Shown here: piece by piece, positions 1,973-16,726 of the stretch | Numbering within the stretch: position 1 is the stretch's first letter | Layout of the letters: the number at the start of each line of letters is the position of its first letter | Assembly (NCBI GenBank): GCA_030655755.1 | Contig: JAUSOQ010000056.1 | Coordinates: 1 to 42,511, forward strand | Direction: 5' to 3' | DNA length: 42,511 nt | Origin: Coriobacteriia bacterium | GTDB taxonomy: Bacteria; Actinomycetota; Coriobacteriia; Anaerosomatales; Anaerosomataceae | The notes under the pieces: model-generated | The model's database searches: none | Seen by the model: only the letters and a program-made list of their open reading frames with translations | What the model was told of the DNA's origin: nothing | Made by a program: the position numbers and the translations under genes

Positions 1973-2123
1973 TGCCATGGGGAAACCTTTGGCAAGCGAG
2001 ACTACAAGGTGATCACGTGCGCATAGTAAGTGTCGACAACACGAGTTGTGACCGCTCTCCCGGATGCCCGGCACGATGGGTCTGCCCGAGAGGCACCATT
2101 CAACTCGGCTGAGGAGGGACTTG

Positions 2124-2459
2124 ATGGAACAGCAGATGGTAGTAGTCGAGGTTTTCGACTTCCCCACAGAGACCGCATGCTGGGGCGGTGGATGAGGTCC
2201 TACCTGGTCTCCGGAGGAGATCACATCCATCGTTCGTGGTGAGATGCAGAATCGCTTCGGCGAGTCGGCACGCATCACATACCACGATACCAGCCGACCC
2301 GAAGTCATGGCCCAGTATCCGGATGAAGTGCGACGGATCCAGGGAGACGGCCTGGTGTACCCGGTCACATTCATCGACGGTGAACCGGTCTATGACGGGG
2401 CAGTGTCCTACCCCGCGATCCTACGGGCGGTTCAGTCGAAGTTGTTTGCGACAAGCTGA
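2124..2459 (+). CDS. Putative selenoprotein, ArsD/YuzD-like thioredoxin fold (in-frame TGA as Sec24)
   Basis: An ATG with a strong Shine-Dalgarno (AGGAGG at 2112-2117, six bases before) opens a frame that meets TGA at codon 24 (2193-2195) and then runs on to a TGA stop at 2457-2459, 111 residues in all. Upstream of the TGA is a beta strand (VVVEVFDF, residues 6-13) and Cys19; then Sec24-Gly-Pro. The spacing C-x4-U-G-P matches C-x4-C-G-P of the arsenic metallochaperone ArsD, with Sec in place of its third metal-binding Cys. The C-terminal half (YPVTFIDGEPVYDG around residues 79-92) matches the cis-Pro and last strands of ArsD and YuzD. Protein-like sequence on both sides of the TGA, no other start with a ribosome site after it, and a hairpin downstream argue for recoding. 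No arsenic genes are adjacent. It could otherwise be a nonsense-mutated gene. Role: thiol/selenol redox or metal(loid) handling, inferred. Confidence 0.75.
2205..2223 (+). promoter_or_regulatory. Candidate bacterial SECIS hairpin
   Basis: An 8-bp stem (2205-2212 with 2216-2223, one G-U pair) is capped by the triloop GGA at 2213-2215. The loop starts 17 bases after the TGA at 2193-2195 and has G in its first two positions. Known bacterial SECIS elements have small loops with an early G, at about 16-37 bases from the UGA, and bind the selenocysteine elongation factor SelB. The element lies inside the coding sequence as expected in bacteria. Confidence 0.6.
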
Positions 2460-4912: not shown

Positions 4913-5482
4913 ATGACAAAGCACATGGTAGCATGGAGAAACCTAGTGCAGCGCAGCGCAGCCAGGAAGCTGCACTACCACCCAAGACCCGCCCTTATGC
5001 TCGCGTACGTCCGCGCACCCGAGCACGCGATTCGTTCTACTCAAGAGGCACCGAGCCGCATCGCAGCGTTCGGCGCACGCGCCTTTCTCGCCGGTGCGCT
5101 CGGGCTTGTGGCTGTGTCTGCCATCACGGGAAGCGACACCACTGTCGCTGGGACCCGAGCGCTTACAGCGGTCGTGTGGGCGTTCGCCCGCCTCGGCGTG
5201 ATGCTGTTCTTTGCGCGCGGTGACCAACGTGCGGCCATTGCCACCGGATGGGCTGCGGGGCTGCTCCCCTATCTTGTCGGCGTCACGCTCGGCTTGAGGG
5301 CTGTCGCATTCTTTATCTCAGCCATCTACACCGATGCGGCGCTTACAGGCGTCGGCATCGACCGGGAACGCTCCCATTCGCTCGTAGTCCGGGCGTTCGG
5401 TGCACAGGGCATCGTGGTCGGCGCTTTGTGGGCAGCGCGCGCGATCATCGCAGCAGTCGTGATGCTCGGCGCCTCGTTCTAG
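4913..5482 (+). CDS. Uncharacterised membrane protein
   Basis: A 189-residue protein with about 50 mostly hydrophilic, basic N-terminal residues and then roughly four hydrophobic stretches (about 55-72, 82-98, 108-135, 163-188). I do not recognise a family. The ATG is preceded by GGAGAAGAGGGC, a plausible ribosome site, although an internal ATG four codons later is possible. It is divergent from the penicillin-binding protein gene with about 100 bases between the starts. Its stop TAG overlaps the stop of the convergent exporter gene within a single CTAG. Reality as a gene is supported by the hydrophobic pattern and gene packing; function unknown. Confidence 0.65.
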   Translation: MTKHMVAWRNLVQRSAARKLHYHPRPALMLAYVRAPEHAIRSTQEAPSRIAAFGARAFLAGALGLVAVSAITGSDTTVAGTRALTAVVWAFARLGVMLFFARGDQRAAIATGWAAGLLPYLVGVTLGLRAVAFFISAIYTDAALTGVGIDRERSHSLVVRAFGAQGIVVGALWAARAIIAAVVMLGASF

Positions 5483-6476: not shown

Positions 6477-6500
6477 AGCGAGGCAGAGAAGCGGGGCAAC

Positions 6501-6872
6501 GTGAGAACACGGTTGCACAGTGTAACGACATGGAGCGCAGTCGTCTTATGGGCGACGATGATCTTCATCCTCTCCAGCATCCCGGGCTCCGCCCTGCCTC
6601 CGGGAAGGTACAGCACCCTGGGACATTTCACGCTCTACTTCGTCTTGGGTGCGCTGGTATTCGCCGCCCTCGACGGAGATCTGCGCAGTCGCGCTCTGTC
6701 AGCCATCGCCATCGCATCTGCTTATGGGGTGAGTGACGAGTTGCACCAACTCTTCGTACCCGGGCGTTGTGCCGACCCGATCGACTGGCTCGTTGACACG
6801 CTTGGCGCCCTTACGGCGATCGTCTTGATCCTATTCATCTTGCGACCACGCGCATCGCGCCGAAAAGACTAA
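6501..6872 (+). CDS. VanZ family protein
   Basis: A 123-residue membrane protein with three or four helices. The family marks are visible: SSIPGS after the first helix, GHFTLYFVLGAL in the second, and DELHQLFVPGRCADPIDWLVDTLGA near residues 80-106, which matches the VanZ DExxQ.f.pgR....D...n..G pattern. VanZ gives low-level teicoplanin resistance in enterococci; most homologues have no known role in the envelope. The start is GTG. A hairpin terminator begins at its stop codon. Confidence 0.85.
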   Translation: MRTRLHSVTTWSAVVLWATMIFILSSIPGSALPPGRYSTLGHFTLYFVLGALVFAALDGDLRSRALSAIAIASAYGVSDELHQLFVPGRCADPIDWLVDTLGALTAIVLILFILRPRASRRKD

Positions 6873-6903
6873 GGGCAGCCACCGCGCACGCGGCGACTGC
6901 CCT
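6872..6903. terminator. Hairpin terminator between convergent genes
   Basis: AGGGCAG at 6872-6878 pairs with CTGCCCT at 6897-6903, and an inner CCGCG/CGCGG stem extends it. There is no long T-tract. It lies between the vanZ-like gene and the convergent secreted-protein gene. Confidence 0.5.
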
Positions 6904-6930
6904 CGAGGATCGAACATCACTTTCGGTCTG

Positions 6931-7410
6931 CTACAGACCAAGCCAAGCCGTGAGCTGTGCCGCAAGACGCGCCAAGCTGGCGGTGATATTCCCCAGCAGA
7001 CCTTCGCTGGCACGCACCTGAGCTCGAATGATTGCGGTGACCGGTCCATCAACCGGCTCGCCTGCAGGCTCTCCGAGCGCTCCCGCGTTCACATGCGCCT
7101 TCACTTGCGCCTTCACCTTCACCGACTCGTCGGTCGGTTCGATCACGTCATCTGGATCGTCGCCCGTTGTCGCCATGTGAACCTGGGTCCGAGTCTGGGT
7201 GCACGTCTTCTCGCCATCGCATTCGGCAGTGCATTCCGCGAACGGCCCGTCGCGGAACCAATCCTGCAAACAGTCCCCCTTGAGTTCACCGCTACACGCG
7301 GTCTGCTGCGTCTGGGACGGTTCACCGCTCCCTGCGGCAAGTGCCGAGACAGGCACTGCCAGCGCAGCAAACATCGCTGCGGCCGCAACCAGTGCGATCA
7401 TCTTCTTCAT
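6931..7410 (-). CDS. Secreted cysteine-containing protein, unknown function
   Basis: A 159-residue protein with a clear signal peptide (KKM, then a hydrophobic stretch ending in SALAAG, about residues 1-26). The mature part has a Cys-rich segment (five Cys between about residues 38 and 73) and an acidic, then Lys/Ala-rich central stretch that ends in a C-terminal amphipathic helix (LARLAAQLTAWLGL). I do not recognise a family. It is the third gene in line after the ECF sigma factor and the DUF5667 protein (79 bases behind the latter), so it is probably part of that regulon. The ATG is supported by the signal peptide; upstream codons are not protein-like. Confidence 0.65.
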   Translation of the reverse strand: MKKMIALVAAAAMFAALAVPVSALAAGSGEPSQTQQTACSGELKGDCLQDWFRDGPFAECTAECDGEKTCTQTRTQVHMATTGDDPDDVIEPTDESVKVKAQVKAHVNAGALGEPAGEPVDGPVTAIIRAQVRASEGLLGNITASLARLAAQLTAWLGL

Positions 7411-7489
7411 GTGGCGCACCCCTACTCTGTGGATTCGAGATCGATCGTCTACAGAAACGGTTCGCGTGCGAAAGAGGATACGGTCAGCG

Positions 7490-8197
7490 TCAGGGTCGGG
7501 ACATCCCTGATGGTCCAGTCGTCTCCGGCGATGCAGCGGGAGCGTCACCTGTGCCCGGAGAGTCAGGGCTGCTACCGCTGTTGACATCGGACCCCTGCAT
7601 GCTGTTCCCTGCCGGCGATCCGTTCGAGACAGTGGGGTCGGCGTTATCGAGCGCCTCCTGCAGTTCGGTCCTGATCGGCTGAGGTGTCGATTCCACATGC
7701 TCACGCAGGCGTGTCGCATAAGCACTCTCTTCAGCACTCATGGCGTCTTCACCGTATGCAGCCGATGTCATCACTCGGAACTGCTCGAACGCGCGCAACA
7801 TGAGCTCGTCGTCTGCGCCGTCGTTGGTCATCCGAGCAAGTTCATCGGCTCTCCGCATCGCGATCGTGAACAGGAAGTGACGCTGCATATCCCCGTCGGG
7901 GAGCACCTGTAGCGTCACGTTTTCAGAAAAACGCTTGATACCGTAGAACGGATCTCCGGGGAGAGATACTGCGGCCGCGTATGAGGTACCGCCGAGAACG
8001 GTCGCCGTGATCGTGATCATCGCCATCGCGCGACGGAAGACCGTAAGCCCGCGTACTGGGAGCGCGTCATGATCGACATGCGACATCACGCGCGCACGGA
8101 TCGCCCGCTTGCGGTCAATAGACAACGGTGCTGCACTGCGCAGGACGACCTGCGCGACAACGTCCCATTCGTGTGTCTCTGCGTCGAACCTAGCCAT
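7490..8197 (-). CDS. DUF5667 membrane protein, likely anti-sigma partner
   Basis: A 235-residue protein with one membrane helix near residues 54-78 and, just outside it, the DUF5667 pattern LPGDPFYGIKRFSENVTLQ followed by a helical segment. The C-terminal 45 residues are a Ser/Pro/Gly-rich low-complexity tail. In actinobacteria, DUF5667 proteins are encoded next to ECF sigma factors and are thought to control them. The start ATG overlaps the end of the sigma gene by 8 bases, so the two are translationally coupled. The cytoplasmic part of about 50 residues is short and lacks the zinc HxxxCxxC motif of typical anti-sigma domains, so the mechanism of control is inferred. Confidence 0.8.
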   Translation of the reverse strand: MARFDAETHEWDVVAQVVLRSAAPLSIDRKRAIRARVMSHVDHDALPVRGLTVFRRAMAMITITATVLGGTSYAAAVSLPGDPFYGIKRFSENVTLQVLPDGDMQRHFLFTIAMRRADELARMTNDGADDELMLRAFEQFRVMTSAAYGEDAMSAEESAYATRLREHVESTPQPIRTELQEALDNADPTVSNGSPAGNSMQGSDVNSGSSPDSPGTGDAPAASPETTGPSGMSRP

Positions 8198-8777
8198 GTT
8201 CGTTCTCCTCGGCCAGCAGCCTTGTAAGCGAGCGTACCGCCCGATGCTGCAGCGCCTTGACGGCCCCTTCTGACTTGCCGAGCCCTTGCGCACTCTCTTT
8301 CACATCGAAGCCCCAGACGAACCGGAGCATCAATACCGATCGTTGCTCCTCGGTCAGCGAGTCCATCGCCTCGCAGACCTCCTCCACCTCAAGACGGGCG
8401 AACACCCTCTCGTCGACGATCGCGGACACATCCATGACTTCGAAAGCATCCTCTGCCGAGGCGATCTCGGGCACACGCGCTGTCCGACGGTAGGAGTCGA
8501 TCACTGCATTCCGAGCGATGCGGAAGAGCCAGGCTCCGAACGGAATACCTCTGTCGTCGTATCCATTGATCGCCTCCCACGCCTTCAGGAAGACGGTGGC
8601 CGTGAGGTCTTCAGCGTCCTGTGTCGAGACCACCCGCCCGCGGACGAACGCGTATACTCGGTCAGCGAACTCATCGTAGAGTCTGCCGAACGCGCGTGCG
8701 TCACCAGCGATGGCCTTCGCCACCAGCCTGTCAATGTGCCTCTCAGCCAACGCGGTCTCCCGCGCGCCTAGAACCAT
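8190..8777 (-). CDS. ECF-type RNA polymerase sigma factor
   Basis: A 195-residue sigma-70 of the extracytoplasmic-function group. Region 2 spans about residues 20-95 (RLYDEFADRVYAFV, DAEDLTATVFLKAW, the -10 recognition helix IPFGAWLFRIARNAVIDSYRR). Region 4 spans about residues 137-185 (SLTEEQRSVLMLRFVWGFDVKESAQGLGKSEGAVKALQHRAV). The DUF5667 gene that overlaps its end is the likely regulator. Target promoters are unknown; the secreted Cys-containing protein downstream is a candidate. It is divergent from the radical SAM gene. Confidence 0.92.
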   Translation of the reverse strand: MVLGARETALAERHIDRLVAKAIAGDARAFGRLYDEFADRVYAFVRGRVVSTQDAEDLTATVFLKAWEAINGYDDRGIPFGAWLFRIARNAVIDSYRRTARVPEIASAEDAFEVMDVSAIVDERVFARLEVEEVCEAMDSLTEEQRSVLMLRFVWGFDVKESAQGLGKSEGAVKALQHRAVRSLTRLLAEENEHG

Positions 8778-8798
8778 TCATAGCAACGCCAATCCACG

Positions 8799-8827
8799 TT
8801 CGGCGGATACGGTCTCCATGATAGAAT
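8799..8827 (+). promoter_or_regulatory. Weak candidate promoter for radical SAM gene
   Basis: TAGAAT at 8822-8827 is a good -10 box, and TTCGGC at 8799-8804 is a poor -35 at 17-base spacing. It lies in the divergent region before the radical SAM gene. Confidence 0.3.
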
Positions 8828-8906
8828 CTACTGACTCGTGCGCCGATCTCGAACCCTGCACCGTACACTGCAATGCGCACGCCACATGAGGACTGAGGCT
8901 CAACAT

Positions 8907-10355
8907 ATGATACGTCGCATCGCACTTGTAACACCTCACTATCACAGTGGCGTCGTAGAGACCGCCGGCACTTGGCCCAATGTCGCATTCGTCTACATCG
9001 CCGGAGCACTCCGAGAAGCGGGCTTCGAACCCGTGATCTACGACGCCATGACCATGGACCATGACGCCGACCAGATTCGCGCACAACTCGTCGCGCTGCA
9101 ACCGGACGTCGTGCTCACCACAGCGTACACGCCCTCATTCCCTAAAGCAGTCGACCTACTGCGCCTGGCTAAAGACGCGCTTCCCGGCGTGATCACCGGT
9201 ATCGGGGGCGTGCATACGCACTTCATGTACGAAGAGGCGCTCACTCGACATGGAGATGTCATCGATTTCGTACTTCGCGGCGAGGGTGAGGTCACTGCCC
9301 CTGAGCTCATGTGCTGCCTTGCCGAAGGGGGTGACCCGGCTACCGTCGAGGGTGTCGTCTTCAAACGTAACGACGTCGTTGTCGTTACCCCCACGCGACC
9401 CTTCCTGGAGAGCCTTGACGGCCTCGCAACCGCATGGGACCTGGTGGACTGGGATCTGTACCGGTTCTACCCGCTTCCCGAGACAAACCTCGCCGTCATC
9501 TCGACATCACGCGGCTGCAACCAGTCATGCACCTTCTGCAGTCAGCAGTCCTTCTGGTGTAAGACTTGGCGCGGACGCTCCCCCAAAGACGTGGTCGATG
9601 AGATGCAGATGCTCAAGGACCGTTTTGGCGTCGGGGTCATAATGTTCTCAGACGAAACACCCACACTCGACCGCGAACGCTGGGAGCAACTACTCGACCT
9701 ACTGATCGAACGTGACCTGGGGCTGCACCTGCTCATGGAAACGCGAGTCGACGACATCTTGCGTGACGAGGATATCCTCCCCAAGTATGTCGAGGCGGGC
9801 ATGCGACACGTGTATGTCGGGGTCGAGCGTACCGACCAGGCGACACTGGATCTGTTCAAGAAGAACACCGACGTACAGATGGGCAAGAAGGCCCTCGACC
9901 TCTTGAACTCGTACGACATCATCACCGAGACGAGCTTCGTCCTGGGCCTGCCCGACGACACACCCGAGACGATCGAAGCGACGTTCGAACTTGCGAGACA
10001 CTACAACCCCGATCTCGCGTTCTTCCTCACGATCGCTCCCTGGCCGTACGCCGACATCTACCCCGACCTTGAGCCGTATATCGTGTCCTACGACTACGAG
10101 GACTACAACCTGGTCGCGCCTGTGGTGAAGCCTAAGGCGATGGAGACCGACGAACTCATGCGCATCGTGATCAACTGCTACCGACGCTTCTACATGGGTA
10201 AGCTCAAGCGCGTCGCTTCGATGTCACCGTCAAAGCGCGACTACTTCCTTGTGACCATGAAGCTTCTCATGGAAAACTCGTATCTCAAGCAGTTCATGGG
10301 TGGGCTGGGAAAGATGCCGACTGAGATCGACTCACTGCTCGGGAAGTGGCTCTAG
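8907..10355 (+). CDS. B12-binding-domain radical SAM protein
   Basis: A protein of about 482 residues with an N-terminal cobalamin-binding-type domain (LREAGFEPVIYDA, VLTTAYTPSFPKAVDLLRLAK, GGVHTHF) and a radical SAM core. The Fe-S motif CNQSCTFC (CxxxCxxC) follows STSRG. Such proteins, often named BchE-like, perform methylations, ring closures or C-C bond rearrangements with a 5'-deoxyadenosyl radical. The usual DxHxxG of B12 ligation is not evident, so cobalamin may not be bound. I start at ATG 8907 (GAGG eight bases upstream). In-frame ATGs at 8889 and the GTG 8838 would extend it. There is no operon context, so no substrate can be named. Confidence 0.85.
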   Translation: MIRRIALVTPHYHSGVVETAGTWPNVAFVYIAGALREAGFEPVIYDAMTMDHDADQIRAQLVALQPDVVLTTAYTPSFPKAVDLLRLAKDALPGVITGIGGVHTHFMYEEALTRHGDVIDFVLRGEGEVTAPELMCCLAEGGDPATVEGVVFKRNDVVVVTPTRPFLESLDGLATAWDLVDWDLYRFYPLPETNLAVISTSRGCNQSCTFCSQQSFWCKTWRGRSPKDVVDEMQMLKDRFGVGVIMFSDETPTLDRERWEQLLDLLIERDLGLHLLMETRVDDILRDEDILPKYVEAGMRHVYVGVERTDQATLDLFKKNTDVQMGKKALDLLNSYDIITETSFVLGLPDDTPETIEATFELARHYNPDLAFFLTIAPWPYADIYPDLEPYIVSYDYEDYNLVAPVVKPKAMETDELMRIVINCYRRFYMGKLKRVASMSPSKRDYFLVTMKLLMENSYLKQFMGGLGKMPTEIDSLLGKWL

Positions 10356-10380
10356 GACATCACACTGAAGGCGACGCGCA

Positions 10381-11484
10381 CTAGTAGATGCCGGTCTGCG
10401 CCGCCTGTTCGGCAGTGACGCCGAGCTGTCGCACCTTGATCTTGAAGTCGTGTGCGTTCCCGGCCATCGCAGTGGCGTCCTCTAACGTGACCCTCCCCTG
10501 CTGGTACAAGGAGAGCAGACTCTTGTCGAAGGTCTGCATCCCGTAGTACTCACCGTCTTCCATCGCATCCCGGATCATGTAGGTCTTCTCGGAATCGACG
10601 ATGTACTCCCTGACCGTACCGGTCATGACGAGGACCTCGACGGCGGGTACAAGGCCACCGTTGATCGACGGGATGAGACGCAACGAGACGATGCCCTTCA
10701 GAGTCGAAGCGAGCATCAGGCGGATCTGCTTCTGCTGGTAGGGTGGGAAGAAGTCGATGATGCGGTTGATCGTCTCGGTCGCATCGATCGTGTGCAGTGT
10801 CGAGAAGACGAGGTTACCGATCTCTGCAGCCGTGAGCGCCGCTGAGACTGTCTCGTGGTCGCGCATCTCACCGATAAGGACGACATCGGGATCCTGGCGA
10901 ACGACATGCCGAAGGGCATCGGCATAACTGTCGGTGTCGATGCCGATCTCGCGCTGGCTGATGATGCACTTGTCATCCCGGTGCAGCACTTCGATCGGAT
11001 CCTCAATGGTGACGATGTGACCTTCGCGCGTGTGGTTGATGTGGTCGATCATCGCCGCAAGTGTCGTCGTCTTACCTGAACCCGCGGTACCCGTGACGAG
11101 CACCAGACCACGCGGCTCATCAGCAAGACGGCTCACGACCGGCGGCAAGCCGAGATCCTCGATCGAACACCGATCGGTGGACACACGACGCAGCGTCATA
11201 CCGACGCTGCCACGCTGATGGAAGACGTTCACGCGGAATCGCCCGACACCCGGCACGGAGTAGGCGAAGTCGATCTCGCAGTGATTGACGAAGGACGCCT
11301 GCTGCCGCTCGTCCATCATGCCGAGCGCAAGCTGATTGGTGGCTTCAGCGCCAAGGGTGGGGAGATCGCGCAGCACGACGAGCTTCCCGTTCAAGCGAAC
11401 TGCGGGAGGACTCCCGACTTTCAGATGCAGGTCGGAACTCCCCCGGTCGCTCATGAGTTTAAGCAGGCCATCTATCTCAGCCAT
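10381..11484 (-). CDS. pilT: Type IV pilus retraction ATPase PilT
   Basis: A 367-residue hexameric ATPase of the PilT/VirB11 family. It has the N-terminal PAS-like domain (SDLHLKVGSPPAVRLNGKL), Walker A GTAGSGKTTTLA, the Asp box IVTIEDPIE, Walker B VVLIGEMRD and the His box STLHTIDATETINRIIDFFP. PilT depolymerises type IV pili for twitching and DNA uptake. No other pilus gene is in the window. The ATG at 11484 is preferred; a GTG four codons earlier is closer to GGAG and is a real alternative. It is convergent with the radical SAM gene. Confidence 0.93.
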   Translation of the reverse strand: MAEIDGLLKLMSDRGSSDLHLKVGSPPAVRLNGKLVVLRDLPTLGAEATNQLALGMMDERQQASFVNHCEIDFAYSVPGVGRFRVNVFHQRGSVGMTLRRVSTDRCSIEDLGLPPVVSRLADEPRGLVLVTGTAGSGKTTTLAAMIDHINHTREGHIVTIEDPIEVLHRDDKCIISQREIGIDTDSYADALRHVVRQDPDVVLIGEMRDHETVSAALTAAEIGNLVFSTLHTIDATETINRIIDFFPPYQQKQIRLMLASTLKGIVSLRLIPSINGGLVPAVEVLVMTGTVREYIVDSEKTYMIRDAMEDGEYYGMQTFDKSLLSLYQQGRVTLEDATAMAGNAHDFKIKVRQLGVTAEQAAQTGIY

Positions 11485-11565
11485 TCTCGTCACCACTCCG
11501 ACTGCTCGCAGGCTTCAGGCAGACACCAGCATACCCCACGAAAGGTAGAATCGCGTAGCGGGTTC

Positions 11566-12768
11566 TCACGCAGTGCGCAGTGCGTGACGACTGAAACCGA
11601 CGACTCCTGTAAGAAAGACCATGCCGCCGATCAGGGCGATCGTGATACTGAGACCGACCCTCTCGGCAAGAAGACCGGCGCCGATGAAACCTACAACCGT
11701 GAAAATGCGTGATACTGTCGCCTTCGCCGCGAAGACGCGGCCGCGCAGCTCGCCGCGTGAGGACTGCTGGATCATCGTAGCCATCGGCACCTGGAACCAC
11801 ATGTTGGCGATCCCGCCCACAAACAGCAGCGGCACTGCGACCAACATGCCGGGAGCCAGCGCAACCGCGCCGAAGAAGAACCCGAAGGCACACAGACCGA
11901 GAAGGAACTTGCGACCTGACGCATCGCTGGTCGTCCTTCCGACACTGAAGCTTCCAAGCAGCAGCCCGACCGTGATCGCTGCATCCAATATGGCCAGACC
12001 GGGAGCCCCGGCATTGAAACGATCGAGTGCAAGCAGATAGACGACCGTGACCGATGCCGCGACGCCCATCGCAGCGATCGTGTAGACGCCCATCAGATCC
12101 CGCAATAACGGGACTTCATTGATGTGCCGCAGACCGCGCATGACGTCCTCGCGCAAGCGAACGCTCACCTGTCCCACCCGTTCACGAGTCTCACGGTAGG
12201 ACACGAACATAATGAAGATCGCGGAGATCACGTACGTTCCGGCATCAAGGAAGAACGCTACCCTGTAGCCGAGTGCGGCAACGAGCGCACCCGCGAACGC
12301 CAGCCCGAAGAGTTCGGAGACAGACATCGTGGCGTTGTCGAGAGAGTTCGCCGCCATGAGTTCGTCTTCTCCCACCAGTTCAGGGATGAGCGAAAACTTC
12401 GAGGGCTCGAAGAACAGCGAGATCGTCGAGACGAGGAACGCCACCGCGTAGACACCGAGTATGCCGACACGCGCGACAGCCGGAATCGCAAGGACAAGCA
12501 CACCACGCAGAAGATCCGAGACGATCATCGTGATGCGGCGATTCCAGCGGTCCACGAACACGCCTGCAAGCAGCCCGAACAGGGCGGCGGGCAGTGTCGA
12601 GATCGCCAGCATGATGCCCATCTGCAGCATCGAACCTGTGGCCTTGTAGACAAGGATGCCCATAGCGATCTGGTTCACCTTGTCGCCCACCACCGACACC
12701 ATCTGGCCGAGCCAGAGCATCCGGTAGTCCTTCGAGCGCAACGGAACCCAGAGACGGCTGGTCGCCAT
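11566..12768 (-). CDS. MFS exporter, MFS_3 (enterobactin-exporter-like) type
   Basis: A 400-residue protein with about twelve membrane helices. The pattern LWLGQMVSVVGDKVNQIAMG in helix 1 and LLAGVFVDRWNRRITMIVSDLLRG at the loop 2-3 signature is typical of MFS_3 exporters related to EntS and macrolide efflux proteins. It should expel small molecules using the proton gradient; the substrate is unknown. The ATG has GGGGGAG just upstream. Confidence 0.9.
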   Translation of the reverse strand: MATSRLWVPLRSKDYRMLWLGQMVSVVGDKVNQIAMGILVYKATGSMLQMGIMLAISTLPAALFGLLAGVFVDRWNRRITMIVSDLLRGVLVLAIPAVARVGILGVYAVAFLVSTISLFFEPSKFSLIPELVGEDELMAANSLDNATMSVSELFGLAFAGALVAALGYRVAFFLDAGTYVISAIFIMFVSYRETRERVGQVSVRLREDVMRGLRHINEVPLLRDLMGVYTIAAMGVAASVTVVYLLALDRFNAGAPGLAILDAAITVGLLLGSFSVGRTTSDASGRKFLLGLCAFGFFFGAVALAPGMLVAVPLLFVGGIANMWFQVPMATMIQQSSRGELRGRVFAAKATVSRIFTVVGFIGAGLLAERVGLSITIALIGGMVFLTGVVGFSRHALRTA

Positions 12769-12832
12769 ACTCCCCCCGATGTGAGTACCTCAGTTCCCCC
12801 AGCTTAAGAATGAATCTGCGCCACATGGATGT

Positions 12833-13840
12833 CTAGTGGCGACACGCACCAGCATAGTCACTTCGATCCATACTAGCGATCCTCACGACGTCACCGGTAT
12901 GCGGCGCATGGATGTACATCCCGCCACCGACGTAGATCCCGACATGGTGGATCACGCTCGTACCGAAGAACACAAGGTCGCCCGGTGCAAGATTGGCACG
13001 AGAAACGCGTTGGCCACAGCTGATCTGGGAACGGGAACTGTGCGGCAGACTGACACCGACGCGTGCATACACCCACATCGTGAAACCGCTGCAATCGAAG
13101 GCATTGGGGCCAGCCGCTCCCCAGACATACGGCGCACCGAGCTTGGACTTCGCTATCGAGACGACCTCGGAACGAGGGGCATTGGTGGGACTGCCGTAGT
13201 CGCCCCTTGGAGCCGCGCTTACCCGCTTGGCCTCTTCGGCTGCCTGTAACGCGCGGACTTCGGACTCGATCCCCGCTAAGACGCGCTTGCGCTCGGCGAA
13301 CTGCTTCTCGATCGACGCCTTGCGGTCATCCATGATGTCGAGCTGCTTCTTCGCCTCAGCCTGCTGCGCCTTGAGCTCGACTTGCACTGCCGATATCTGG
13401 GCTCGTGTCGCCTTGAGTTCAGCAACCGCGTCGGCATCGTTCTCATTCATCTGCTTGAGCAGGTCCCACGTCGAGGCGAACTCTTCAAACGTCGTAGCGC
13501 CGAAAAGGAGCTCCAGTGCGCCAAGTGGACCGCTGCGATACATGCCCTCGACACGCGTGTCGAGGTGCTTCTGCAATTCCTCCTGACGAGCGGTGAGCGC
13601 CGCAAGCTCCTGCTCGGCGCTCTTCACCTTCTTGGTGACGGCGTTGTATGCAGCACTCGCCTCGTTGTAATCGTCGCTCGCGATCTCGACCTTGGCGTCG
13701 AGTTCCTCGACCTGCGCTTTGACTTTAGCCGCCTCGGCCTGCTTATCAGACGTCGGGGTGGCAAGCGCCATGCCGGGAAGTGCCATGAGCAGCGCTGCGC
13801 TGAGAAGCAACGCGACAAGACTGCGGAACGGACTCTTCAA
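12833..13840 (-). CDS. Secreted coiled-coil NlpC/P60 peptidoglycan hydrolase
   Basis: A 335-residue secreted endopeptidase. A signal peptide (KSPFRSLVALLLSAALLMALPGMALA) is followed by a long coiled coil (about residues 30-215) and a C-terminal NlpC/P60 domain with the catalytic Cys in FDCSGF, His in HHVGIYVG and a third polar residue in HAPHTG. It cuts the D-Glu to diamino-acid bond in peptidoglycan stems. The architecture is that of RipA-like hydrolases for cell separation, in which the coiled coil controls activity. I start at TTG 13840 because GAAGAGGTG stands just before it and the signal peptide then begins correctly. A GTG at 13864 without a ribosome site would add eight residues. Confidence 0.9.
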   Translation of the reverse strand: MKSPFRSLVALLLSAALLMALPGMALATPTSDKQAEAAKVKAQVEELDAKVEIASDDYNEASAAYNAVTKKVKSAEQELAALTARQEELQKHLDTRVEGMYRSGPLGALELLFGATTFEEFASTWDLLKQMNENDADAVAELKATRAQISAVQVELKAQQAEAKKQLDIMDDRKASIEKQFAERKRVLAGIESEVRALQAAEEAKRVSAAPRGDYGSPTNAPRSEVVSIAKSKLGAPYVWGAAGPNAFDCSGFTMWVYARVGVSLPHSSRSQISCGQRVSRANLAPGDLVFFGTSVIHHVGIYVGGGMYIHAPHTGDVVRIASMDRSDYAGACRH

Positions 13841-13882
13841 TGTGACACCTCTTCGTTCGAACACGGACGAAGCCCAAAGATA

Positions 13883-14791
13883 TTACCACATATCGCCCTC
13901 TCGACACAGCGCGGAGCACAAAGCGTCGAGCACTCTGACGGCGACTCGCTGCCTTCCTGCATCATCATCGAGAAGCAGGGAGCTGAGATCGACGACTACT
14001 TCCTTGCGGCCTTCAAGGGCGCTCAGGGCGGTGAGTAATCGTGGCTCCAACGCACCATCGTCAACCGAATCGATGACGAGCCGAGGAAGCGACCCATCGA
14101 CGTCTGGAGCGATCCCGCTGCCAAGTCGAAGGACGATCATAGCATCCGGTGCCGGAACGTCACACACGTCCACCCCTGCCGAGGGTTCGGTGGCGAATGC
14201 AAGATTCGCCATTCGGTCAGCAATATCACGCCCGCCGTCATCCAGACCGACGAGCGAGACCGGTGTTCGCGCCAGTACGTCGGCAGCACGCGCTGCTGCC
14301 ACCTTGAGTGCCACAGGGGCAGACGGATCCTTGTCGTGCCAGACATGGCGAAGACGATCGATCGCTCGGACGGTCTCGCCACCGACGATACCGTCCTCCG
14401 CCTGCGCGACATTGGACTGAAACTCACGCACGGCGCGCTCAGTGAACGCACCGAATATGGCATCCGGTTCTCCACACGCGAAACCAAGGGCATTCAGTGC
14501 ACCCTGCAAGACACGCACGTCTTCTCCATGGAAGTACGGGAACTTGAGGTAGAGTAGCCGATCACCGAGTCTGAATGTCGCGTCGACGAGGGCGGCCCAA
14601 GTCTCTGCGCCGACCTCACCGTCTTCGGTAAGGCGCCGTTCGCTCTGGAAACCTCTCACCGCGTCCCAGGTCGCACCTAGGAACACGCCATCAACTCCAG
14701 TTGGGCCGAGGTCATACCCCAGCATCAACAGGCGCTTCTGGATGTCCTCGACCGCGGAGCCTCGGGAGCCCCGCTTGATGGGTTCGATCAC
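13883..14791 (-). CDS. Tandem peptidoglycan-binding protein, CwlM-like
   Basis: A 302-residue protein with no signal peptide. Two PG_binding_1 domains occupy about residues 7-72 (RGSRGSAVEDIQKRLLMLGY...FQSERRLTEDGEVG) and 83-148 (EDVRVLQGALNALGF...FQSNVAQAEDGIVGG). The C-terminal half has the size and alternating strand pattern of an amidase_3 domain, but I see none of the zinc-binding His/Glu residues. This resembles mycobacterial CwlM, a cytoplasmic, non-enzymatic relative of amidases that regulates peptidoglycan synthesis. That role is inferred from architecture. The start is GTG after GGAGGG. It lies between two envelope-related genes. Confidence 0.75.
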   Translation of the reverse strand: MIEPIKRGSRGSAVEDIQKRLLMLGYDLGPTGVDGVFLGATWDAVRGFQSERRLTEDGEVGAETWAALVDATFRLGDRLLYLKFPYFHGEDVRVLQGALNALGFACGEPDAIFGAFTERAVREFQSNVAQAEDGIVGGETVRAIDRLRHVWHDKDPSAPVALKVAAARAADVLARTPVSLVGLDDGGRDIADRMANLAFATEPSAGVDVCDVPAPDAMIVLRLGSGIAPDVDGSLPRLVIDSVDDGALEPRLLTALSALEGRKEVVVDLSSLLLDDDAGRQRVAVRVLDALCSALCREGDMW

Positions 14792-14835
14792 GGGCGAAAC
14801 CCTCCGTCCGGGTCCTTGCGTGGCACGGGGCAGAG

Positions 14836-15180
14836 TCAGTTGGGGCTGTACCGCTCCCGGAACTTCGCGACATTGCTCTGCATATGGTCTCGATGCGCCC
14901 TGATACGTTTGACAAAAGAATCTATCTCCACAACGAGCGCGATATCACCGGTGAACGCGTACTCCGTGGGCTCACCGACACGCGAATTGAACACGTAGGA
15001 CTCCCTGAGCGTCTCGAGGATCCGCTCCGCTGCTGCCGAAGCGTGACCTGTGCGACACCACACGTCATCAGCGGTCATCCACTCACGCTGGTGCTTCGAG
15101 AACAGCATCAGTATGTCGCGCACGATCATCTCGTGACCGCCGTCCTCGGGCAACCGGGACAGCGCTCTTGCAAGACTCAC
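14836..15180 (-). CDS. Small winged-helix-like protein, unknown
   Basis: A 114-residue soluble protein. The middle (IVRDILMLFSKHQREWMTADDVWCRTGHASAAAERILETLRESYVFNSR) looks like a winged helix: three helices and a two-strand wing. The C-terminus (IDSFVKRIRAHRDHMQSNVAKFRERY) is a basic helix. This suggests a DNA-binding or protein-binding regulator, but I do not recognise the family. GTG start with GGAGGGCGTT upstream. It follows the GGDEF gene by 55 bases on the same strand. Confidence 0.65.
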   Translation of the reverse strand: MSLARALSRLPEDGGHEMIVRDILMLFSKHQREWMTADDVWCRTGHASAAAERILETLRESYVFNSRVGEPTEYAFTGDIALVVEIDSFVKRIRAHRDHMQSNVAKFRERYSPN

Positions 15181-15235
15181 AACGCCCTCCGTTCGCTACG
15201 GCGGCAGTGAGATAGTAACTACATGTTACCACCGG

Positions 15236-16726
15236 TCAGGAGGCGACCGTCACCTGATTCTTGCCATACCGCTTCGCTTCATACATCGCCTTGTCAGCCG
15301 TCTCGATGAGCCGGGCAGCAGTCGTGGCATGCGTAGGGAAGGTCGCGACACCGAGCGAGACGGTCTGGGTCGTAGGGCTAGTCCCCTCGCCCGTGACGAA
15401 GGGATACTGCGACATGCTCTTGCGGATGCGTTCTGCGACTGCAAGAGCGCCAGGGATGTCAGTCTCGGGAAGCACGACGACGAATTCCTCGCCACCGTAC
15501 CGCGCGGCGACATCTATCTCACGTAGGTTCTGCATGATGATCGAACTCACAGCCTGAAGCACCTTGTCCCCCCGCGGGTGACCATAAGTGTCGTTGAACT
15601 GCTTGAAATCGTCGATATCGAGCATGATGAGTGACAGCTTGTGACCGAAACGCTGTGCACGTCCGAGTTCCTCCTCCAGCCGCTGCTGCAGGTAGCCGTG
15701 ATTGTAGAGCTCGGTCAGTCGGTCGGTGATCGAGAGACGTTCAAGCTCTTCATGCAACAGCGCGTTCTGCAGAGCGAGCGACGACTGGTTGCCGATGATC
15801 TGAAGACGGTCACGCTCGGGCTGCGTGAACTCACGGTACGTCGAGGATGCAAGAACGAGTATGCCGATGATCGACTCGCCCGCCCTCAGAGGAATCGCCG
15901 CTTGGGAGCGGATGCTCTCAGGCTGATTCGTCCACCGCGCGGACTCGGCGCCGAGCGGTACGTCGCTCTCCTGCGTGGCACCGTCGCGGAACGCGGTACC
16001 CAGGATCGTCTCGGAGACAGAGACCACCGGCCGGAACGCATCCTCGGGTCTACCCTGGCTCGCACGCAAGTGTAAGGTCCAGTCCTGCTGATCGAAGAGA
16101 TACACACACGATATCTCCGCGCCGAGGATACCGTTGGCGCCGTCAACGATCAGACTCACTACGTCATCGACAGAAGAGTAACTCGTCAGCGCTTTGAAGA
16201 ACTCGTGAGTGAAGAATATCTCAGCAAGTCTGCTTTCGAGTTCTTCATTTGCCTGCTCGAGCGCCTCCTTGCTCGCCTGCAACCGTCGCTCGTGACTGCG
16301 GATCTTGTCGTACGCCACCTGCAACTCGACGAAGATCTTCTCCTGCTCCTCACTGCGCTTCTTTGCAATGAGCAGATCCCAGACGAGTTCTGCGCCCACC
16401 GCCGACACGATCTCCACTGCTCCGGGACGCAGTGACTCAAGCGCTGCACGCACGGTGAGGTCTTCAGACATGTCGAGGATGAGATCGAGCTCCATGAGCT
16501 GCGAGAGCTCGGATATCTCCGTCGTCGTGAGAATACCGAGGTCGTCCGCCAGCCGAAGCGCCGGGGCCGACCGGTTCGGATCGTAGACGGCTACCATGGC
16601 AAGGTTCTCGACATCGGCAAGCAGGCGCAACACGGAGGTGGCACGTAGCCCACCTCCCGCGATCGCGATATGCACCTGTCCCGAGCGGGCCGCCGAGCCG
16701 GCGACCGACGCCACGACCTCTTCCAT
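15236..16726 (-). CDS. Diguanylate cyclase with Rossmann-like and GAF domains
   Basis: A 496-residue protein. Residues about 18-130 form a Rossmann-like nucleotide-binding domain (IAIAGGGLRATSVLRLLADVEN, then VAVYDPNRSAPALRLADDLGI), followed by a coiled coil (about 135-170), a GAF domain (about 175-320) and a GGDEF domain (about 330-495). The active site GGEEF is intact, and REID five residues before it is a full RxxD product-inhibition site. It should make cyclic di-GMP from two GTP. It starts 22 bases after cheD and is probably the last gene of the chemotaxis operon, linking that system to c-di-GMP. An NAD-type or metabolite signal is possible through the Rossmann domain; this is inference. 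ATG chosen over the GTG one codon before. Confidence 0.88.
   Translation of the reverse strand: MEEVVASVAGSAARSGQVHIAIAGGGLRATSVLRLLADVENLAMVAVYDPNRSAPALRLADDLGILTTTEISELSQLMELDLILDMSEDLTVRAALESLRPGAVEIVSAVGAELVWDLLIAKKRSEEQEKIFVELQVAYDKIRSHERRLQASKEALEQANEELESRLAEIFFTHEFFKALTSYSSVDDVVSLIVDGANGILGAEISCVYLFDQQDWTLHLRASQGRPEDAFRPVVSVSETILGTAFRDGATQESDVPLGAESARWTNQPESIRSQAAIPLRAGESIIGILVLASSTYREFTQPERDRLQIIGNQSSLALQNALLHEELERLSITDRLTELYNHGYLQQRLEEELGRAQRFGHKLSLIMLDIDDFKQFNDTYGHPRGDKVLQAVSSIIMQNLREIDVAARYGGEEFVVVLPETDIPGALAVAERIRKSMSQYPFVTGEGTSPTTQTVSLGVATFPTHATTAARLIETADKAMYEAKRYGKNQVTVAS

Follow-up and report, generated by a model that had tools for sequence, protein, structure and literature searches.

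An in-frame UGA conserved within Actinomycetota marks a predicted selenoprotein family related to YuzD and ArsD

We analyzed a 42,511-nucleotide stretch of Coriobacteriia DNA (the window) and found a short gene, interrupted at codon 24 by an in-frame TGA, that in all probability encodes a selenoprotein (probability of about 0.97, judged from sequence comparison). The selenoprotein family to which it belongs is previously uncatalogued, and its members have a thioredoxin-like fold that is nearest to YuzD/DUF1462 and ArsD and is equally or more YuzD-like. The relevant features of the window are:

2124..2459, + strand: coding sequence of the predicted selenoprotein, 111 amino acids, with a Cys19-Trp-Gly-Gly-Gly-Sec24-Gly-Pro motif and a thioredoxin-like fold.
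2193..2195, + strand: in-frame TGA, codon 24, read as selenocysteine; TGA is present in every homologue read.
2111..2118, + strand: Shine-Dalgarno sequence GAGGAGGG; most relatives have a purine-rich site ahead of the matching start.
2205..2223, + strand: predicted bSECIS hairpin UGGUCUCC-GGA-GGAGAUCA, 8 bp, from pairing, covariation and a consensus model (PMC13188914).
2244..2459, + strand: 71-codon fragment of standard gene calling, a table-11 ORF call whose start codon is not conserved.
2017..2112, + strand: ferredoxin remnant with a GTG start, 31 amino acids, VRIVSVDNTSCDRSPGCPARWVCPRGTIQLG; in relatives this is a full-length dicluster 4Fe-4S protein.

The frame runs from an ATG at 2124 to a TGA stop at 2457–2459, with 87 open codons downstream of codon 24. 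An earlier sequence-only reading of this DNA had proposed the ribosome site, the start, the TGA, the open frame and the stop, all of which were borne out, and the C-x4-C-G-P motif in which it placed the TGA was found as C19-x4-U24-G-P. It had also claimed that gene calling would report only 71 residues from 2244; table-11 ORF calling indeed returned that fragment and nothing else of the gene.

Next, we scanned GTDB species genomes for relatives. The 27 relatives retrieved are MAGs of Coriobacteriia or Actinomycetota, one of them labelled Anaerosomatales, and share 49–78% identity with the window protein in the family alignment (A1). TGA occupies codon 24 in 27/27 relatives, and thus in 28/28 members including the window. 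The invariant residues of A1 are C19, G22, G23, U24, G25, P26, W28, P30, E31, E32 and a C-terminal DGAVSYPAI. When 398 genomes of the class were searched with the A1 profile, 63 matches were obtained, every one with an in-frame TGA (63/63), and nearly all had a single in-frame TGA per gene. Within the window's order, 61 of the 69 genomes in the sample carried the family. A search of the phylum with the same profile yielded 18 remote members from four further families, with one TGA each; in all 15 that were read by residue, the TGA lies in the same glycine-rich motif, as it does in the two members read from a further class family (f17). Such recurrence of the TGA far exceeds what chance would give. 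The spacing between Cys and Sec is Cx4U in the window family and Cx3U in remote families f46 and f48, and Cys19 is absent from one remote member (L108).

Only two phylum matches lacked a TGA inside the match: L109, a true ArsD (CCSTGVCGPS), and the YuzD-like L107, in which a TGA lies just upstream of the profile match in a GURSC motif. No Cys or other sense codon was seen at the TGA position among the family members read, and the family proper yielded no Cys version in the sampled class and phylum genomes. A tblastn search of plasmids returned weak matches to ArsD and other proteins without a Cys orthologue, and a search of viral contigs gave no family member. We also sought relatives with neither Cys nor TGA at this position, which the earlier reading had named as evidence against it; none was found, and ArsD and YuzD carry Cys there.

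Downstream of the TGA, a predicted hairpin spans +12 to +30 from the first TGA base, beginning 9 nt past the TGA, and presents an apical loop, CGGAG (N1-G-G-N-N2), that begins 16 nt after the UGA. The published bSECIS model describes a stem of 4–16 bp with an MFE of -7.5 kcal/mol or lower, and an apical loop of 3–9 nt that lies 16–37 nt after the UGA, has G in its first two positions and follows the consensus N1-G-[G/U]-N-N2 (PMC13188914). With an MFE of -12.7 to -13.6 kcal/mol for its region, the window hairpin agrees with this model. The folding energy of this region is by itself unremarkable (z 0.15), hence the case for a SECIS rests on conservation and covariation. Over 38 distinct sequences, the hairpin pairing held in 99.7% of cells, while structures slid along the same sequences paired in 38–70% only. 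Sixteen cells were changed on both sides, against a shuffled mean of 2.3, and none of 500 shuffles reached as high a count. The apical N1-N2 pair was unbroken in the 38 sequences (C-G in 28, U-A in 8, A-U in 2), and among members with a 19-nt spacing, L098 adds a G-C apical pair. Codon +5 is TCT in 27/27 Ser codons, although TCT makes up 8% of Ser usage in neighbouring long ORFs, and a CCG within the hairpin stretch is fixed in 28/28 members. From this codon pattern, the hairpin appears to hold synonymous choice frozen at rare codons. Elsewhere in the window's genome, a scan for the exact loop consensus hit a single site, C64:80732, where no sensible gene can be read.

The genome that holds the window (G000; 2.13 Mb in 81 contigs) was examined for the selenocysteine machinery that the sequence-only reading had called for, and all four components were present: selA (591.6 bits), selB (384.4 bits), selD (362.2 bits) and tRNA-Sec (68.9 bits, in two contigs). 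We noted that selD (G000:C77:20732-21649) codes for a selenoprotein as well and has its own in-frame TGA, at the Sec site; its SECIS loop, CGGGU, lies 16 nt after the UGA, the same distance as in the window gene. The two tRNA-Sec genes (G000:C77:25501-25593 and G000:C15:45921-46013) are identical, as are the 44 nt that flank each of them on the 3' side at a contig end, and their upstream sequences differ; either selC is duplicated or the assembly forks at this point.

Across the class sample, selA was detected in 52/63 family-bearing genomes and in 134/335 others (odds ratio 7.1, Fisher p 3e-10, relatedness not being corrected for), and it was found in 16/18 of the remote TGA-bearing genomes. 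Among the 11 family-bearing genomes without selA, two (G101 and G129) have selB over the cut-off, two (G147 and G119) have C-terminal selB pieces, and three (G101, G119 and G147) have tRNA-Sec above 68 bits. In the remaining seven MAGs, all from the window's order (G047, G051, G115, G145, G073, G111 and G133), the TGA gene is present and selA and selB were not detected; three of these (G047, G051 and G073) are rated at least 96% complete. Missing contigs would be the simplest cause of this absence. The tRNA-Sec matches in G051 and G145, near 50 bits and just over the cut-off, may be tRNA-Ser instead. Collectively, our comparisons show a UGA at codon 24 whose decoding is predicted to depend on context: a SelB-type hairpin lies just downstream, and the genome has a complete Sec machinery.

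Explanations without selenocysteine have to account for the same observations. Under table 11 the frame is interrupted by TGA, as a nonsense mutation or a decaying gene would produce, yet the same TGA is fixed across the order and in remote families. Moreover, codons past the TGA motif evolve in the manner of a protein, with differences of 0.31, 0.24 and 0.57 at the three codon positions; since these fall mainly at third positions, the family gene is not a pseudogene. Nonsense mutation or decay is thus refuted by the homologues, and we regard it as extremely improbable. Scarcely more credible is that UGA is reassigned genome-wide, or that the codon serves unregulated read-through or regulatory termination rather than Sec insertion. 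The gene itself ends in TGA in 12 of the 28 members (TAG in 15, TAA in 1), and this genuine use as a stop indicates that the UGA code is not reassigned. That nearly every hit has just one in-frame TGA in the gene also argues against these possibilities, as do the Sec machinery and SECIS, and code reassignment was rejected on stop usage and homologues. Internal re-initiation at 2244 was likewise rejected, because the internal Met is ATG in just 11/28 members and the start is therefore not conserved.

We then inspected the gene neighbourhoods. In 24/27 relatives, the gene is immediately preceded, on its own strand, by one for a small dicluster 4Fe-4S ferredoxin whose first motif, CDRSPxCPxxRxCPxGAI, is odd and is followed by CTGCxxCxxxCP. 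In the three relatives with no upstream ferredoxin (L031, L035 and L037), a DUF362-4Fe-4S protein begins 0–15 nt past the gene. Remote families f46 and f98 have the same ferredoxin type ~500 nt away from the selenoprotein gene. In f54, a thioredoxin gene ends where the selenoprotein gene starts, and in f48 the selenoprotein gene is preceded by genes for a 2-thiouracil desulfurase (PF04463) and for a ThiI/MnmA-like PP-loop protein. No ars genes were present in the family neighbourhoods examined. These ferredoxin, thioredoxin and sulfur-gene neighbours speak less for metal(loid) export than for a role in electron transfer or in sulfur chemistry.

Compared with that of relative L021, the window ferredoxin is missing, in frame, the inter-motif residues and the second cluster motif. 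A similar motif, C-x-G-G-[AT]-I, marks the end of the missing segment, pointing either to recombination between the two cluster motifs or to a fault in the assembly. With only a 31-residue remnant left, the partner may be lost in the window's genome. We also noted that in L096 (f46), ~400–500 nt upstream of the TGA, the ferredoxin appears broken, with its cluster motifs in different frames; decay of the partner may therefore have occurred more than once.

An AlphaFold2 model computed on A1 (pLDDT 86.3, pTM 0.78) has the order E-H-E-H-H-E-E-H; its least confident part is the loop with C19–U24 (block pLDDT 64–69). The top Foldseek match was 1xg8 of the YuzD family (E 4.9e-5), and the ArsD structures 3ktb, 3kgk and 3mwh came next, among thioredoxins. 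VIA-align gave Z scores of 9.5 for 1xg8, 8.7 for 3mwh_B, 8.5 for 3kgk_B and 8.3 for 3ktb_A; as thioredoxins overlap the same range, it is the sequence rather than the fold that chooses between these relatives. DUF1462 (PF07315) matched 28/28 members at E up to 1 (best 4.8e-10), and the window protein scored 25.2 bits, above the Pfam gathering score of 25. Pfam ArsD (PF06953) gave weak matches to 26/28 members (best 9.3e-5), and Thioredoxin_3 matched one member. The resemblance to ArsD that the sequence-only reading had pointed out thus holds, in profile and fold alike.

The active site of YuzD is CxxC. Its second Cys, Cys22 in the S. aureus structure (1xg8), aligns with Sec24, whereas the window family lacks the CxxC itself and has Cx4U (Cx3U in remote families) followed by a conserved G-P-S-W. 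ArsD (PF06953, NF033727) shares the thioredoxin-like fold, and its C-x4-C-G-P aligns with C19-x4-U24-G-P, so that Cys13 and Cys18 of ArsD are the equivalents of Cys19 and Sec24. By contrast with ArsD, the window family has Sec for Cys18, a SECIS, and neither a Cys12 equivalent nor an ars operon.

We consider it likely that the protein both is a selenoprotein and has a redox-type thioredoxin fold; that its function, given a selenoprotein, is as a redox or electron relay stands at about even odds. In such a relay, the 111-residue product would act as a small cytoplasmic thioredoxin-fold oxidoreductase, in which the selenolate of Sec24 would make the attack and the thiol of Cys19 would resolve it, so that a Cys-Sec selenenylsulfide forms. 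The electron donor would be the CDRSP-type 4Fe-4S ferredoxin encoded alongside or, for one remote subfamily, thioredoxin; the putative target would be a disulfide, a persulfide or another oxidized sulfur or selenium substrate. The lack of Cys19 in L108 indicates that Cys-Sec pairing is not universal, and together with the variable spacing it makes a mixed selenenylsulfide with a partner also possible.

Two other functions compete with an electron relay. Sec24 might carry or release persulfide or selenide for Fe-S, thio-tRNA or desulfurase chemistry, as the f48 neighbourhood and the Fe-S proteins that adjoin the gene in most of the order would allow; the desulfurase link is confined to one subfamily, though, with ferredoxin or thioredoxin adjoining elsewhere, and we hold such trafficking to be rather improbable. 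Slightly less probable still is an ArsD-like metal(loid) chaperone, in which Sec24 and Cys19 would bind As(III), Hg or a soft metal and hand it to a partner. The Pfam ArsD matches, the ArsD structures among the closest folds and the retrieval of the true ArsD L109 by the A1 profile (E 8.8e-4) are consistent with this idea, but DUF1462 outscores ArsD. In addition, according to Lin et al. (2007), as cited in PMC4562236, ArsD function requires Cys12, Cys13 and Cys18; the family does not share this triad, having A, T, S, D, E or N, and never Cys, at the Cys12 position in all 28 aligned members. A genome search for ArsA gave only short P-loop matches (at most 36 bits over at most 66/305 positions), which all 14 controls gave too, making the search unspecific. 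Where the earlier reading had inferred a metal(loid) or redox protein, the redox half fits better, and the metal(loid) half is unsupported because Cys12 is missing and the genes nearby are not ars genes but those for ferredoxin, thioredoxin and sulfur chemistry.

The YuzD-like match L107 (G443:C25, reverse strand of 6500-16500) merits separate mention. This YuzD/DUF1462-like ORF has a TGA at oriented position 4956, within a U-R-S-C motif, and a candidate SECIS hairpin with an AGU loop. It shares the Pfam family and an in-frame TGA at the active site with the window family, differs in its UxxC order and is a single example; it is possibly a second uncatalogued selenoprotein.

The 119 prokaryotic selenoprotein families in the table of a 2026 review include no PF07315 entry and no CxGGUGP motif (PMC13188914). 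SaoT, Sec.1/Sec.2, UXX-star and HesB-like UxGP proteins are likewise small, with Sec in a redox motif and a SECIS just past the UGA, but none of them has CxGGUGP or PF07315 in that table. With E values of up to 10 admitted, the window protein had no match in NCBIfam 20.0; nine members gave weak ArsD matches only. Literature searches combining DUF1462, ArsD or Coriobacteriia with selenoprotein found nothing relevant; subscription papers and preprints lay outside their scope, so a prior description is not fully excluded. The authors of deep-Sep remarked that Cys homologues now seem to exist for every known selenoprotein, and that a selenoprotein lacking them may be thrown out by their method (PMC12013277), which would explain why this family was missed.

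The new family occurs in 61/69 sampled genomes of one order, from which isolates exist (PMC9686372), and extends to five or more other families of the phylum; annotation pipelines truncate its gene. Its strict use of Sec, with no Cys versions in the sampled genomes, suggests a reaction that needs selenium. The adjoining ferredoxin is a directly testable partner, and the family adds a selenium branch to the ArsD/YuzD fold. Tentatively, and at somewhat less than even odds, we suggest that it represents a Sec-only ArsD/YuzD branch, old in Actinomycetota, whose selenol works in partnership with a dedicated CDRSP-type ferredoxin; if so, it would constitute an unrecognized ferredoxin-to-selenol redox route.
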